55,676 bases of DNA from Bacteroidota bacterium (GTDB lineage: Bacteria; Bacteroidota; Rhodothermia; Rhodothermales; JANQRZ01): contig JBCDKT010000025.1 in assembly GCA_038746285.1 (NCBI GenBank), positions 1 to 55,676 on the forward strand, written 5' to 3'. This document shows, one piece after another, positions 34,131 through 40,144 of this stretch. The notes below the pieces were generated by a model. It had not been told where the DNA came from, did not search any database, and saw only the letters and a program-made list of their open reading frames with translations. A program made the translations under genes and the position numbers. The first letter of the stretch is position 1; every line of letters starts with the position of its first letter.

Positions 34131-34286
34131 GTCATCTCACAATAACAGACAACCGGTTGCCTTCCTGCGGCGACCGCAACATACCACCCGGGGGTGTCAA
34201 CCCGTGTCACTCCGCTTCTAGTTTGCAAAAACGGACTCAACCGGCCGAGGCCTCCCGCCGCACAGGCGCGCTACGCCTCTCCTGAC

Positions 34287-34312
34287 GGGTCCCGGATCGA
34301 GTCTAGGATGAC
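34287..34312. repeat. Partial copy of the GTCATCC dispersed repeat
   Basis: GGGTCCCGGATCG followed by AGTCTAGGATGAC matches, with some divergence, the reverse complement of the first 27 bases of the repeat at 39337-39409. Confidence 0.6.
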
Positions 34313-34346
34313 GGAACGCTGACGATCGCTACCCGGCCTGCGTCGA

Positions 34347-35432
34347 TCAGCCTGCCGGTACCACCTGCTCCTGCGCTGCGTGTGCCTGCGCGACGACGGT
34401 GTGGACGTCGGCGAGGATCCCGCCTGCGGTCACGTCGGCCCCAGCTCCCGGGCCGGAGATCGTGATCGGGGCGTCGCCGTAGCGCTCGGTGCGGAACGTG
34501 AAGAGCGTGTCGGTCCCGGCGAGCTGCCCGAGCGCCGAGTCCGTCGGCACCTCGCGGACGCCGACCGCGATCCGGCCGTCCTCGAACCGCCCGACGTAGC
34601 GCAGCACTTGGCCTTCGGCTGCTGCCGCTGCTGCCCGGTCGGACCAGGCCGCGTCGTAGGCCGCGAGCCGGTCGGGGACCTCGGCGGCGGGCACGTCGGC
34701 GAGGGCAGGCGGGGTGAGCGGCTCGACCTCGACCTCGCTCCGCTCGACGCGGTAGCCGGCCGTCCGCGCGAGGATTATCAGCTTGCGCACCACGTCCTCG
34801 CCCGAGAGGTCGTCGCGGACGTCGGGCTCGGCATAGCCGCGCTGCCGGGCTTCGACGACGGCCTCGCTGAACGACGCCCCCTGCCCCAGCCGGTCGAACA
34901 CAAACGTGAGCGTCCCCGAGGGCGAGCACACGATCTCCTCGATCCGGTCCCCGCTCGCCCGAAGGTCGCGGACGGGCTGGACGACGGGCAGGCCGGCCCC
35001 GACCGTCGTCTCGTAGCGGTAGCGGACGCCACCGCCGGACGCCGCGAGGAGCGCGTCGAAGTAGGCCTGCTCGAACGTGTTGGCGTGCTTGCTCGGCGTG
35101 ACGACGAGGACGCCCGCTTCGAGCAGGCGGAGGTAGGCCCGCCCCACGTCGGGATCGCTCGTGGCGTCGACGAACACGACCGGCCGCGCCCCGCCTGCGG
35201 CCTCTTCGAGTCGCGGCAGGATGGTATTCCAGTCGGTCGGCTCGTCCCACGACGGGGTTGCGGCGAGCGCGGCAGGCGCGAGGCCATCGGGGTTCCACAC
35301 CGCACCGCGTGTGGTGCAGGCACCGACGAGACGGGGCGCGCCGTCGCTGAGCGCCTCGAGGCGGCCCAGGAGCGCGGTGCCGACGGCACCGACGCCGGCG
35401 AGGTAGAGGTCAGCGGAGGCGGACGAGGTCAT
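34347..35432 (-). CDS. hom: Homoserine dehydrogenase
   Basis: This 361-residue enzyme reduces aspartate semialdehyde to homoserine. The NAD(P) site is LYLAGVGAVGTALLGRL. The catalytic domain has TPSKHANTFEQAYFDALL (Lys), RYRYETTVGAGLPVVQPVRDL and SPSGTLTFVFDRLGQG. Sequence style is that of the C-terminal half of the bifunctional ThrA, without an ACT domain. It overlaps the aspartokinase gene by four bases (ATGA) and is the last gene of the methionine operon. It feeds homoserine to MetX. Confidence 0.93.
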   Translation of the reverse strand: MTSSASADLYLAGVGAVGTALLGRLEALSDGAPRLVGACTTRGAVWNPDGLAPAALAATPSWDEPTDWNTILPRLEEAAGGARPVVFVDATSDPDVGRAYLRLLEAGVLVVTPSKHANTFEQAYFDALLAASGGGVRYRYETTVGAGLPVVQPVRDLRASGDRIEEIVCSPSGTLTFVFDRLGQGASFSEAVVEARQRGYAEPDVRDDLSGEDVVRKLIILARTAGYRVERSEVEVEPLTPPALADVPAAEVPDRLAAYDAAWSDRAAAAAAEGQVLRYVGRFEDGRIAVGVREVPTDSALGQLAGTDTLFTFRTERYGDAPITISGPGAGADVTAGGILADVHTVVAQAHAAQEQVVPAG

Positions 35433-36388
35433 GGCGTGGAAGCGTGAGCGGGTTCGGGAGTCAGAGAGTCGGCAGGCGAAGCGTCGGCAGAGGTTGGTAG
35501 CAGCCAGGAGCCGGGCGCGTCGGGGGCGGCGGTGGAGCGGACGCGGACGCGCGTGGCCGTCCCGACGAGCGGGTCGAGCGCGCGGGGGTGCATCCCGAGG
35601 CGGCCCTGACGGGCGAGCGCGGCGGCCTCGTCGAGGCGGAGCGTGGGGACCGGCGCGGCGTCGGGGTTGAGGTTCGGGTCGTCGTCGTAGAGCCCGTCGG
35701 TGTCGGTCCAGCGCTCCAGCAGGTCGGCCCCGAGCGCGGCGGCGACGAGGCCGGCCGTGTAGTCGCTCCCGCCGCGCCCGAGCGTCGTCACGGTGCCCCG
35801 GTCGGTGCTGCCGAGGTAGCCGGTCACGACGGGGACGACGCCGGGACGTAGTGCTCGGTGCCAGGCCCGCAGTGCAGGGTACGTCGCAAGGGCATCGACC
35901 GAGGCCACCCCGTGGCGGTCGTCCGTGCGAACGAGCCGAGCGGCGTCGACGGGCTGCGCGTCGAGCTTCGTCTCGCTCAGCAGCGCCGCCACGAGAGGAG
36001 CCGAGAGCCGCTCGCCGACCGCGAGCGCGGCGTCGCGGAGGGCGAACGTCGCGCACTCGCCGGAGACCTCTCTCAGCACCCGGCCGAGGGCGGCGGTGTG
36101 GATGCCGAGGGCAACCTCGTAGCGTCGGAGGCCGTCGCGGCTGAGCGCAGCCGCCGCGAGCCGAGCGTAGCGGTCACGCACGCGCGCGACGTGCGGGCCG
36201 GCATCTGACCCCGTCCCGTCGAGGGCGGCGACGGCGTGGGCGAGCGTGTCGGTCACGCCGGACGCGGCCGAGACGACGACCACGACCTGAGCCTCCGCCG
36301 CTGCGCGGGCGACGATCTGGGCGGCGTTCGAAAGCGCCGTCGGGGCGCCGACGGAGGTACCGCCGAACTTGAGGACGTGGAGAGGCAT
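35429..36388 (-). CDS. Aspartate kinase catalytic domain without ACT domains
   Basis: This is a 319-residue protein, where LysC-type kinases are usually about 400-460 and ThrA about 820. The kinase motifs are complete: KFGGTSVG at the N terminus, TLGRGGSDYTAGLVAAAL, and WTDTDGLYDDDPN. The sequence stops after the kinase domain (about residue 285) with a Pro/Ser-rich tail. There is no regulatory ACT pair. Feedback inhibition by lysine or threonine is therefore unlikely. With the overlapping hom gene it looks like a ThrA split into two chains with loss of the regulatory middle. It lies 4 bases after metX. Confidence 0.9.
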   Translation of the reverse strand: MPLHVLKFGGTSVGAPTALSNAAQIVARAAAEAQVVVVVSAASGVTDTLAHAVAALDGTGSDAGPHVARVRDRYARLAAAALSRDGLRRYEVALGIHTAALGRVLREVSGECATFALRDAALAVGERLSAPLVAALLSETKLDAQPVDAARLVRTDDRHGVASVDALATYPALRAWHRALRPGVVPVVTGYLGSTDRGTVTTLGRGGSDYTAGLVAAALGADLLERWTDTDGLYDDDPNLNPDAAPVPTLRLDEAAALARQGRLGMHPRALDPLVGTATRVRVRSTAAPDAPGSWLLPTSADASPADSLTPEPAHASTP

Positions 36389-36392
36389 GGGG

Positions 36393-37445
36393 CTACGAGG
36401 TCAGGGCTTCGGTGGAGGGCGAGGCGGCGTGGCGCTCGACCCACGGCCGGAGGAGGGTGCCGAGCTGGTCGAACTCGATCAGAAACGCGTCGTGGCCGTA
36501 GGGCGAACGGACCACGCCGAGCGTGGCGTCGGGGAGCGCCGCCGCGAGTGCTTCCTGCTCGGCGAGCGGGTAGAGCACGTCGCTGTCGATCCCGACGACG
36601 AGCGCGGGCACGGTGATGTCAGCGAGGCCGCCGTCGCCCTCGCTCCGGGTCGCGTCGTGGCTGTCGAGCGTGTGGGTGAGGGCGACGTAGCAGGCGGCGT
36701 CGAAGCGGTCGGCGAGCTTGGCACCCTGGTAGCGGAGGTAGCTCGCCGCGGCGAACAGACCGGGGTCATCGGGCATCGCCCGTCGTCCGTGGCGCTCGGC
36801 GAAGGCGGCGGGCGAACGGTACGAGAGCATCGCCACAGCCCGAGCGGCGGCGAGGCCTGCGCGGGGCGGCGTCGCCGGGTCGTAGTCGCCCCCGGCCCAG
36901 GCGGCGTCGGCGAAGAGGGCCTGCCGCTGCGCCTCGTTCCAGCCAATCGCCCACGCCTCGTGCCGCACCCCGACCGCGACCGGCGCGACGGCGCGGACGA
37001 ACCCAGGGTAGCGTCCCCATTCGAGCGCGAACATCCCGCCGAGCGAGCCGCCAATGGCAAGCGCGACGCCGCGGACGCCGAGCGCGTCGAGCGCCGCCCG
37101 GTGGAGCCGGACGCTGTCGCGGACGGTGAAGCGCGGGAACGTGCTCCCGTAGTCCCGGCCTGTCGCGGGGTCCGTCGCGCGCGGCGAGAGCGCGCCGTAG
37201 GGCGACCCCGGAGCGCTCAGGCAAACCACGAAGTACCGGTCGGTGTCGAGCGCGCAGCCGGGACCTATGAGCGGCCCCCACCAGTCGGTCGCGTCGGGGC
37301 TCCCGGTGAGGGCGTGGCAGACGACGACGGCGTTGTCGGCCCCGTCGTTCAGGCGGCCCCACGCGCCGTAGGTCACCGTCGGTCGGTCGAGGGTCGCGCC
37401 GGCGTCGGTGACGAACGAGGCGTCGAGCGTGATGGATTGGAGCAT
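36393..37445 (-). CDS. metX: Homoserine O-acetyltransferase MetX
   Basis: This 350-residue alpha/beta hydrolase-fold enzyme activates homoserine for sulfhydrylation. The nucleophile elbow is AIGGSLGGMFALEW (Ser134). The acid lies in VVGIDSDVLYP and the His in SPYGHDAFLIE. The oxyanion region is VCHALTGSPDATDWW. Acetyl- rather than succinyl-specificity is inferred from the neighbouring O-acetylhomoserine sulfhydrylase. The ATG at 37445 lies 13 bases after tRNA-Cys; upstream in-frame codons belong to the tRNA. Confidence 0.95.
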   Translation of the reverse strand: MLQSITLDASFVTDAGATLDRPTVTYGAWGRLNDGADNAVVVCHALTGSPDATDWWGPLIGPGCALDTDRYFVVCLSAPGSPYGALSPRATDPATGRDYGSTFPRFTVRDSVRLHRAALDALGVRGVALAIGGSLGGMFALEWGRYPGFVRAVAPVAVGVRHEAWAIGWNEAQRQALFADAAWAGGDYDPATPPRAGLAAARAVAMLSYRSPAAFAERHGRRAMPDDPGLFAAASYLRYQGAKLADRFDAACYVALTHTLDSHDATRSEGDGGLADITVPALVVGIDSDVLYPLAEQEALAAALPDATLGVVRSPYGHDAFLIEFDQLGTLLRPWVERHAASPSTEALTS

Positions 37446-37458
37446 GATGAAGGGTTGG

Positions 37459-37534
37459 TGGAGTCCGGGGCGGGAATCGAACCCGCGAGTAGCGGTGTTG
37501 CAGACCGCCGCGTTAGCCACTTCGCCACCCGGAC
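37459..37534 (-). tRNA. trnC: tRNA-Cys (anticodon GCA)
   Basis: A cloverleaf is present: acceptor GTCCGGG/CCCGGAC, anticodon stem GCGGT/ACCGC around CTGCAAC, T stem GCGGG/CCCGC, discriminator T followed by an encoded CCA. It lies between metY (34 bases before) and metX (13 bases after) in the same direction, so it is part of the methionine operon transcript unless it has its own promoter. Confidence 0.97.
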
Positions 37535-37538
37535 GGAG

Positions 37539-37564
37539 GCGCTGCCCGTCGAGGCGGGCAGCGC
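37539..37564 (-). other. Hairpin between metY and tRNA-Cys (possible processing site)
   Basis: GCGCTGCCCG and CGGGCAGCGC form a perfect 10-bp stem with a 6-base loop, 4 bases before the tRNA 5' end and just after the metY stop codon. There is no T tract, so it is more likely an RNA-processing or mRNA-stabilising hairpin than a terminator. Confidence 0.55.
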
Positions 37565-37568
37565 ACGC

Positions 37569-38930
<1,362 letters not shown>

Positions 38931-38941
38931 TCAGGGCAAAC

Positions 38942-38973
38942 GAAAACCCCTCCGGCCGGATGGCTGGAGGGGG
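38942..38973 (-). terminator. Attenuator terminator ahead of metY
   Basis: On the minus strand CCCCTCC (38972-38966) pairs with GGAGGGG (38953-38947), with an inner GCC/GGC pair around AUCC, followed by TTTTCGTTT. It lies 36 bases before the metY start, where only conditional termination makes sense. The 5' arm CCCCCTCC is also exactly complementary to GGAGGGGG in the leader (39019-39012), giving an alternative antiterminator. Confidence 0.8.
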
Positions 38974-38998
38974 TGCAGTGGTGCGACGAAACGCGCGC

Positions 38999-39021
38999 GG
39001 ACGCTAGGCGTCCCCCTCCAT
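38999..39021 (-). promoter_or_regulatory. Antiterminator strand and overlapping small hairpin
   Basis: TGGAGGGGG in the RNA (39020-39012) is complementary to CCCCCTCCA of the terminator 5' arm over 9 bp; a nearby GGC may add three pairs with GCC across a bulged A. The same region can also fold as GGACGC/GCGTCC (39013-39008 with 39004-38999), a 6-bp hairpin around the leader stop codon. The three structures are mutually exclusive. Confidence 0.65.
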
Positions 39022-39102
39022 GCCACGGCAAGGCATACACATCCCTTTACACTGCATCGCAGCAGCGCGGAGGAAGGTGTTGGAGGGAGCGAAGGTTGAC
39101 AT
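39004..39102 (-). CDS. Met/Cys-rich leader peptide of the methionine operon
   Basis: A 32-codon reading frame (ATG to TAG) encodes a peptide whose residues 16-28 read MQCKGMCMPCRGM: four Met and three Cys in 13 positions. Using the ATG at 39057 would give a 17-residue version with the same run. It ends 31 bases before the terminator hairpin, and its Met28-Gly30 codons contain the antiterminator strand GGAGGGGG. A ribosome stalled in the Met/Cys run would leave that strand free to pair with the terminator arm. A ribosome reaching the stop would cover it. This is the classical layout of amino-acid attenuation. Translation itself is inferred, and there is no Shine-Dalgarno. Confidence 0.75.
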   Translation of the reverse strand: MSTFAPSNTFLRAAAMQCKGMCMPCRGMEGDA

Positions 39103-39123
39103 GCGGGTCCGAGTGGTTTCGCG

Positions 39124-39154
39124 GAAGACTAGCTCCGGCGGGCGGGAGGTGCAA
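39124..39154 (-). promoter_or_regulatory. Candidate promoter of the methionine operon leader
   Basis: TTG (39154-39152), 20 bases, then TAGTCTTC (39131-39124) fits the Bacteroidota -33/-7 pattern loosely. Transcription would begin close to the leader ATG at 39102. Confidence 0.35.
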
Positions 39155-39336
39155 GAGGCGCGCGTGCTCGGTGGCTAGGATTCGTCTCCTCTACACGCAA
39201 CGGCGCGTTCGGTTTCCGACACCCTGTCGGTTCTGCGGGCACTGCGGGCCAGGCCTGGCCCTTCCGACAGTACCCATCAGCGAAGCTCCAAATGCTGCGG
39301 TTCCGCTTGTGACGACTTCCAATCCTGGAAGCATAT

Positions 39337-39409
39337 GTCATCCCGGACCCCGATCCGGGACCCACCGACTGGCTCCGCCTGTGGGTCCCCGCCTGCGCGG
39401 GGACGACGA
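39337..39409. repeat. Dispersed nested-palindrome repeat (GTCATCC type)
   Basis: The element begins GTCATCCCGGACCCC and ends GGGGACGAC. It contains CCCGGACCCCGATCCGGG, a perfect 9-bp inverted pair GGGACCCAC/GTGGGTCCC, and CCCCGCCTGCGCGGGG. From general knowledge, very similar palindromes are common dispersed repeats in many proteobacterial and other genomes. A partial copy is at 34287-34312. Confidence 0.75.
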
Positions 39410-39484
39410 GTGTAGGGATTGGGTTCGGATTCGCCCAGCCTGCGAAGGCTCCTCCCCGCTCTCCATGTTCCCCCACCGTCTGTC

Positions 39485-40144
39485 TTACTCCACGTCGTAG
39501 GCGAGCGTGAAGTAATCGGCCTGCTCGCTCGGGTGGAGCCGGAGGAGGTTGGCCTTCGCGAGCAGAACCAGCGTCTGCGAGGCGCGGCGCTTCGGGATGT
39601 CGACGAGGCGGGCGAAGCCTTCAACGGTGATCTGCTCGTGACGGTCGAGGTAGCGCATCAGGACCCGCTCCTTGTCGCCGAACTCGAACCGGACGTCGCC
39701 GGGCGCGCGCTCGTGCTTCATCAGCCGGACCGCCTCGCGGCTGGCCTCGATGCTCTGGTCGGCAACGCGGACGTAGGGGGTCCGCGCCCGCCCGTTGCCG
39801 TTCAGGGCACCGACGAGGTAGTGCGGCTTCTCGGTGCTCTCGGGGACGTCGATCACGAGCACCTCGCGCTTGCGGGTGACCGGCACCTGCTCCATCGTGT
39901 GCGCCACCGGCGGGTCGCAGTGCGTCTCGAGCGCCTGCTGGAACGCGAAGCGCTCCTCTTCCACGTCGCGCACCCCGCGAATCGTCCCGTCGTCTTCGAC
40001 CCCGACGAAGAGCTTGCCGCCGCGGGCGTTGGCGAGCGCGATGATCTCCTTGGCGATCCGCTCCGGCCGCGGGGCGCGGTGCTTGAACTCGATGTGCTGC
40101 CCCTCGCCGAGGCGGACGTACCGTTTGATGTCGGACAGGTCCAT
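39485..40144 (-). CDS. AlbA_2/Schlafen-type nucleic-acid-binding ATPase-like protein
   Basis: This 219-residue cytoplasmic protein has an AlbA_2 (divergent AAA_4, Schlafen-type) domain: GEGQHIEFKHRAPRPERIAKEI, ALANARGGKLFVGVEDDGTI, GVRDVE, and a strand-rich middle (VLVIDVPESTEKPHYL). Residues about 165-219 form a winged-helix-like end (HEQITVEGFARLVDIPKRRASQTLVLL). Such proteins are putative regulators or nucleases; no substrate can be assigned. It is downstream of gpsA with a hairpin element between. Confidence 0.8.
   Translation of the reverse strand: MDLSDIKRYVRLGEGQHIEFKHRAPRPERIAKEIIALANARGGKLFVGVEDDGTIRGVRDVEEERFAFQQALETHCDPPVAHTMEQVPVTRKREVLVIDVPESTEKPHYLVGALNGNGRARTPYVRVADQSIEASREAVRLMKHERAPGDVRFEFGDKERVLMRYLDRHEQITVEGFARLVDIPKRRASQTLVLLAKANLLRLHPSEQADYFTLAYDVE

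Follow-up and report, generated by a model that had tools for sequence, protein, structure and literature searches.

The window analyzed here is a stretch of 55,676 nucleotides from a bacterium of the order Rhodothermales (Bacteroidota). Its minus strand carries a methionine biosynthetic gene cluster in which a short open reading frame and a hairpin precede the first structural gene, metY. In the direction of transcription, the features are as follows.

39124..39154, minus strand: candidate Bacteroidota-type promoter, TTG-N20-TAGTCTTC; weak, picked by eye and inferred from the sequence only
39004..39102, minus strand: putative leader peptide ORF, 32 codons plus TAG, MSTFAPSNTFLRAAAMQCKGMCMPCRGMEGDA
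39019..39057, minus strand: Met/Cys control codons of the leader ORF sequence, residues 16-28 (M,C,M,C,M,C,M)
39012..39024, minus strand: antiterminator strand 2 (GGCATGGAGGGGG), overlapping the final leader codons and pairing with 38962-38973
38962..38973, minus strand: strand 3, CCCCCTCCAGCC, common to the antiterminator and the 5' arm of the terminator
38947..38972, minus strand: intrinsic terminator hairpin, CCCCTCCAGCCATCCGGCCGGAGGGG, about -19.8 kcal/mol
38938..38946, minus strand: T tract of the terminator (TTTTCGTTT), read from the sequence
37569..38906, minus strand: metY, O-acetylhomoserine sulfhydrylase, first structural gene (TIGR01326, 670.6 bits, cut-off 495.1)
37459..37534, minus strand: tRNA-Cys (GCA), between metY and metX (ARAGORN)
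36393..37445, minus strand: metX, homoserine O-acetyltransferase (TIGR01392, 375.8 bits, below the cut-off of 500; NF001209, 329.3 versus 331)
35429..36388, minus strand: lysC, aspartokinase, catalytic domain only (PF00696 only, no ACT)
34347..35417, minus strand: hom, homoserine dehydrogenase (PF00742, PF03447)

As the aspartokinase lacks the ACT regulatory domain, we suggest that it escapes the usual feedback inhibition.

Residues 16-28 of the leader ORF comprise four Met and three Cys, that is, seven Met/Cys in 13 codons. Since none of 3000 dinucleotide shuffles of the 400-nt upstream region reached even six in 13, we judge that this run did not arise by chance. That the leader is translated is inferred from synonymous codon variation, and the start codons of the leaders were likewise assigned by inference. 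NCBIfam holds no family for the peptide. A sigma-70 promoter scan at the leader returned no site, and a regular expression for Bacteroidota-type promoters gave no consistent match.

The terminator hairpin begins 31 nt past the leader stop codon; another 31 nt separate the end of its T tract from the metY start (ATG at 38906, minus strand). Because this hairpin is bulged, it was missed by a simple terminator scan. The core of strand 2, TGGAGGGGG, occupies 39020-39012 of the minus strand and is preceded by GGC with a one-base bulge (A). The duplex of strands 2 and 3 has a predicted energy of -28.4 kcal/mol, which only 0.15% of shuffled strand-2 sequences match (p = 0.0015; the native strand beats 99.85%), and the folding energy of leader plus terminator lies 4.1 SD below that of shuffles. 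In folds with a ribosome stalled within the Met/Cys run, the antiterminator forms. A preliminary description of this region, made from sequence alone, had claimed the 32-codon minus-strand frame, its Met/Cys run, the terminator and the complementarity between them, and all of these hold as described; only its placement of GGAGGGGG in codons 28-30 needs correction, as this element spans codons 28-31.

Among 114 genomes of the order searched for this metY lineage, it is found only in the window genome (G000) and in five members of family f12 (G032, G062, G039, G053 and G013), with a metY identity of 80-90%. In all six, a Met/Cys-rich leader is located at the same place before metY. The leaders of the five relatives read as follows.

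G032: MTRSSHIITAPAAMRCMGMMIMCCMAHTGQERSRHGRR
G062: MTRSTYILTAPAAMCCMGMIMCCMADTGQERTRHGRR
G039: MTRSSHIIAPAAMRCMGMIMCMARSGQERSRLGRR
G053: MTRSLSISIIRPASADAIRCMAMCMMMMPTGRTGVHAVPR
G013: MTRSASVLRTSHVAMCMAMMMCGMARPGPEAARTARP

The Cys codons of these leaders vary synonymously between TGC and TGT. Five of the six begin at GTGACCCGCTCC, and the leader of the window genome begins at an ATG three codons further in. By comparison with L006, L035 and L007, the position of the relatives' GTG start is CGG in the window genome (39091-39116), so that the ATG three codons downstream represents a shifted leader start. Within the order, a profile built from the six leaders recovers these six sites and no others at E<1e-11, that of the window genome at E 1.7e-13; elsewhere in the order nothing scores better than about E 1e-3, and we judged these weak matches outside the six to be chance. 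No Met/Cys leader was found before metF in the seven genomes examined.

The RNA elements recur along with the peptide. Each of the six loci possesses a terminator with a T tract 24-31 nt past the leader stop (-17.6 to -29.1 kcal/mol), and the region from the Met/Cys run to the stop pairs with the 5' arm of that terminator through partly different sequences at a similar spacing of ORF and terminator: GGCCAGGAG/CTCCTGGCC in G032 and G062, GGCAGGA/TCCTGCC in G053, and GGC.TGGAGGGGG/CCCCCTCCA.GCC in the window genome. The 2:3 pairing lies below its own shuffles in all six genomes (p 0.0015-0.024), the whole antiterminator folds have z-scores of -2.6 to -4.4, and in a swap matrix each strand fits its own partner best or nearly so; the arm of the window genome, for instance, pairs with its own strand 2 at -28.4 and with those of the others at only -13.3 to -18.5. 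These p-values are not independent, as they derive from only six sequences, three of them closely related. Outside the run, the six leaders align poorly in MAFFT, and we therefore judged the structure sequence by sequence rather than by column covariation. The preliminary description had proposed, as its test, to look in relatives for conserved Met/Cys codons and for both pairings, and these are indeed present in G032, G062, G039, G053 and G013.

We then walked a ribosome codon by codon along each leader, folding the RNA up to, but not including, the second terminator arm. In all six genomes the antiterminator is predicted to hold the terminator arm for as long as the A site lies within the Met/Cys run, and the arm is freed at or just after the final codon of the run. 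The hold is only partial in G062 when the ribosome stalls in the first half of this run, and since release begins at Pro24 in the window genome, its last Cys and Met codons contribute little. With the ribosome at the leader stop, the terminator alone can form in the folds of all six genomes. All of this is predicted from thermodynamics. Nearly all equilibrium folds of the complete RNA favor the terminator, so that the order of synthesis matters and the antiterminator must form first; partial transcripts without a ribosome mostly fold as antiterminator. A 1:2 protector hairpin appears in G039 and in the full-length fold of the window genome but is absent from most no-ribosome folds. As the protector hairpin of trp-type systems is thus not clearly predicted, transcription may continue past the terminator when the leader is not translated, which refines the mechanism proposed in the preliminary description.

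Collectively, we consider it very likely that a ribosome-mediated attenuator of the trp/his type, with a dual specificity for Met and Cys, controls the metY-tRNA(Cys)-metX-lysC-hom operon; this conclusion rests on computation only, without transcript, reporter or ribosome-profiling data. In the regulatory model that we infer, RNA polymerase would produce the leader and a ribosome would translate the 32-codon peptide. When either Met-tRNA or Cys-tRNA is scarce, the ribosome would stall in the Met/Cys run and leave strand 2, which lies just downstream of the run, free to capture the nascent 5' arm of the terminator; on the evidence of folding only, the antiterminator would then form and the operon would be read. 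When both charged tRNAs are plentiful, the ribosome would cover strand 2 and reach the stop codon, the 5' arm would be released, and the terminator would end transcription near 38938, again as judged from folding only. The preliminary description had proposed just such an opening of the operon by a stalled ribosome and its closure by a ribosome at the stop, and the folds and the ribosome walk support this proposal as a prediction whose function in vivo is untested. By computation, the locus has four features of the attenuator class: a control-codon ORF, an intrinsic terminator, a mutually exclusive antiterminator with compensation (in few sequences), and selection between the two structures by ribosome position (in the in silico walk). 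The model would further predict that read-through rises when the cognate aminoacyl-tRNA is limiting.

Elsewhere in the order, as far as sampled, metY is found behind a different device. The order's other metY loci that were sampled are preceded by a SAM-I (S-box) riboswitch, detected by Rfam scan for L010-L024 and by a sequence profile for L025-L034. RF00162 occurs nowhere in the genomes G000, G032, G039, G062 and G013, and Rfam gave no match within 38880-39480 of the window even at E<=1, neither S-box nor T-box being matched there. In the metY tree, the proteins of the six genomes group together (100/100), and a long branch sets this clade off from the SAM-I-linked metY proteins of the order. 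The sixth genome, G053, carries both devices in series, a SAM-I aptamer with its own terminator (L008, 3135-3234, minus strand) and, downstream of it, the leader with its own terminator. From this distribution we infer that the leader travelled with the operon and, at metY, replaced or joined the S-box riboswitch. The tandem is possibly a two-input leader that responds to both SAM and charged tRNA. An S-box and a Met/Cys leader also lie in series before metY at L082, L084, L086, L089, L091, L092, L094-L096 and L103.

As a further refinement of the preliminary description, the system is not confined to this phylum. A protein scan of species genomes added 80 metY loci, so that about 108 loci were examined in all; 106 upstream regions, the order's own loci included, were testable for an ORF with at least five Met/Cys in 13 codons. 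Such an ORF is present in 42 of the 106 (41 without one spurious ORF), against an expectation of 0.62 from shuffles and a single case on the reverse strand, and runs of at least seven in 13 codons occur in 17 upstream regions versus 0. The match at L018 was discarded as a long ORF over a SAM riboswitch. By record title, the leader-bearing metY genes belong to Acidimicrobiia, Pseudomonadota, Acidobacteriota, Gemmatimonadota, Chloroflexota and Bacteroidota; some of these titles may reflect misbinning, and several phyla are represented by one or few MAG contigs. At 30 loci from several phyla, the leader is followed by a terminator at a distance of 18-31 nt, and the 2:3 pairing between the leader end and the terminator arm is significant at p<0.05 in 21 of them. 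In Acidimicrobiia the peptide ...MMCMA...PC... is conserved in 17 peptides with synonymous change of Cys and Ala codons, and one antiterminator pair remains paired in 18 of 18 sequences, of which nine carry G-C, eight A-U and one G-U; conservation is weaker at the neighboring pairs. The leaders of Bacteroidota (Psychroflexus, Sphingobacteriales and others) follow a SAM-I riboswitch and precede metY, and most lack a recognizable intrinsic terminator. The metY tree requires several gains or losses of the leader, which fits either repeated origin or transfer. The metY genes and leaders of L059 and L077, titled Armatimonadetes and Acidobacteria, cluster tightly with those of Acidimicrobiia; these are likely misbinned contigs or cases of recent transfer. 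On balance we lean, with due reserve, toward a bolder reading as well: an unnamed class of Met+Cys leader attenuators at metY in at least six phyla, shaped by repeated origin and horizontal transfer, and swapping with S-boxes or stacking behind them.

Four other explanations need to be weighed against the attenuator. The one that survives best holds that the same leader acts through Rho-dependent termination or through translational coupling to metY, the hairpin being a weak or constitutive terminator. In its favor, the Met/Cys leaders of Bacteroidota mostly lack an intrinsic terminator, as do the poly-Cys leaders of mycobacteria (PMC1262725). Against it stand strong terminators, each with a T tract and a fitting antiterminator, in the six Rhodothermota genomes and at about 24 other loci, and the position of the T tract in the window, which ends 31 nt short of the metY start and does not overlap it; we thus regard this alternative as unlikely. 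Much weaker is the idea that the peptide itself is the effector, either while still nascent or as a small protein that binds metals or thiols, with Met and Cys residues that bind copper or sense redox state. Met- and Cys-rich motifs do resemble metal ligands, but within this order the leader is found only before metY, its flanking residues change between clades while the codon class and the RNA pairings persist, and there is no NCBIfam family. Also very improbable is a chance ORF ahead of an ordinary terminator, whether constitutive or read-through. GC-rich DNA abounds in short ORFs and GC-rich hairpins, but the shuffles, the reverse strand and the recurrence in six of six clade members and in several phyla contradict this view. 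A degenerate S-box or T-box with an incidental ORF, suggested by the S-box found at this position elsewhere in the order, is practically ruled out by the lack of any Rfam match at E<=1, by the absence of RF00162 from G000, G032, G039, G062 and G013, and by G053, where an intact S-box and the leader exist as separate units.

The attenuator that we prefer shares with the trp, his, thr, ilv, leu and phe attenuators of Proteobacteria a control-codon ORF, a terminator before the first gene, an antiterminator that uses the 5' arm of this terminator, and the stalling logic. It differs from the trp/his type in its Met+Cys specificity, in the lack of a consistently predicted protector hairpin, and in an antiterminator whose long hairpin has several parts and encloses the leader stop codon. 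Methionine biosynthesis is usually reported to be under riboswitch, T-box or repressor control. The metL leader of Streptomyces lividans (MSTTSDRTPATEATTTPGARCMCRRMCAF), located upstream of metNIQ and described as containing Met and Thr without having been tested (PMC8079986), is likewise short, contains Met and Cys, and precedes a methionine gene set; in contrast to the metY leader, it lies before a transporter, is leaderless and has no clear terminator (PMC8079986). Poly-Cys leaders without terminators precede mycobacterial and actinobacterial cys operons (PMC1262725; Canestrari 2020, cited in PMC13236596). They resemble the metY leader in sensing a sulfur amino acid through Cys codons close to the stop, but they contain Cys only, lack an intrinsic terminator and serve cys operons, whereas the metY leader mixes Met with Cys, possesses a terminator and serves a metY operon. 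An actinobacterial survey found no RNA structure before methionine operons (PMC1262725). In Bacteroidota and across most of the order, the S-box (SAM-I, RF00162) takes up this position upstream of metY; unlike the leader, which would sense translation, it is a SAM aptamer, it is absent from the window genome, and in G053 and several Bacteroidota it stands in series with the leader. Naville and Gautheret stressed that few if any leader peptides had been demonstrated beyond Proteobacteria and Actinobacteria (PMC2965389), and a flavobacterial transcriptome paper mentions, in general terms, attenuation by leader peptides upstream of amino-acid operons (PMC9723704). In the open-access literature that we searched, which did not include the supplement to PMC9723704 and the met genes it possibly covers, no leader-peptide attenuator at metY is described.

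The attenuation logic itself is classical; what our predictions would add is the dual Met+Cys specificity at metY, its spread over phyla, the exchange and stacking with S-boxes, and the co-transferred tRNA-Cys. If correct, they supply an amino-acid specificity missing from classical attenuation and extend this form of control well outside Proteobacteria. They would also show metY governed by either a SAM aptamer or a translating ribosome, as natural replacements, and by the two together, as tandems; on a single mRNA, a stacked leader would integrate the SAM level through the aptamer and the level of charged Met- and Cys-tRNA through the ribosome. This poses the question whether the cell senses the end product SAM or charged tRNA, and why Met is combined with Cys. 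The Rubricoccaceae-type operon, moreover, encodes a tRNA-Cys that the switch itself would control. This tRNA-Cys lies between metY and metX in five of the six genomes (G000, G032, G062, G039 and G013), and since the f12 genomes carry a different tRNA-Cys elsewhere, their operon-borne gene is an extra copy under the proposed Met/Cys switch; a second tRNA-Cys gene was not located for the window genome.

The operon of the window genome forms an island (window positions 34236-39486) between parC and a gene for an AlbA_2-domain protein. These two flanking genes are adjacent in a genome of the same genus (G001; 222 bp apart) and in one of the same family (G002; about 137 bp) (L116, L117), and neither relative has a metY of this type. 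The parC and purM genes of the window genome are 93% and 90% identical to those of G001 and only 72-75% and 68-70% identical to those of f12, to which its metY is 80-90% identical. As the island is absent from these two relatives and its metY resembles f12 much more than the housekeeping genes do, the most economical account is that leader, operon and tRNA-Cys came in together from an f12-like donor; horizontal acquisition of the operon with its leader is thus the simplest reading, although it remains an inference. A misbinned contig was considered and rejected, given the identity of parC (93%) and purM (90%) to G001; the met island alone is foreign. Its gene order is that of G053 (metY-metX-lysC-hom), and its tRNA-Cys is of the type found in G032, G062 and G039.
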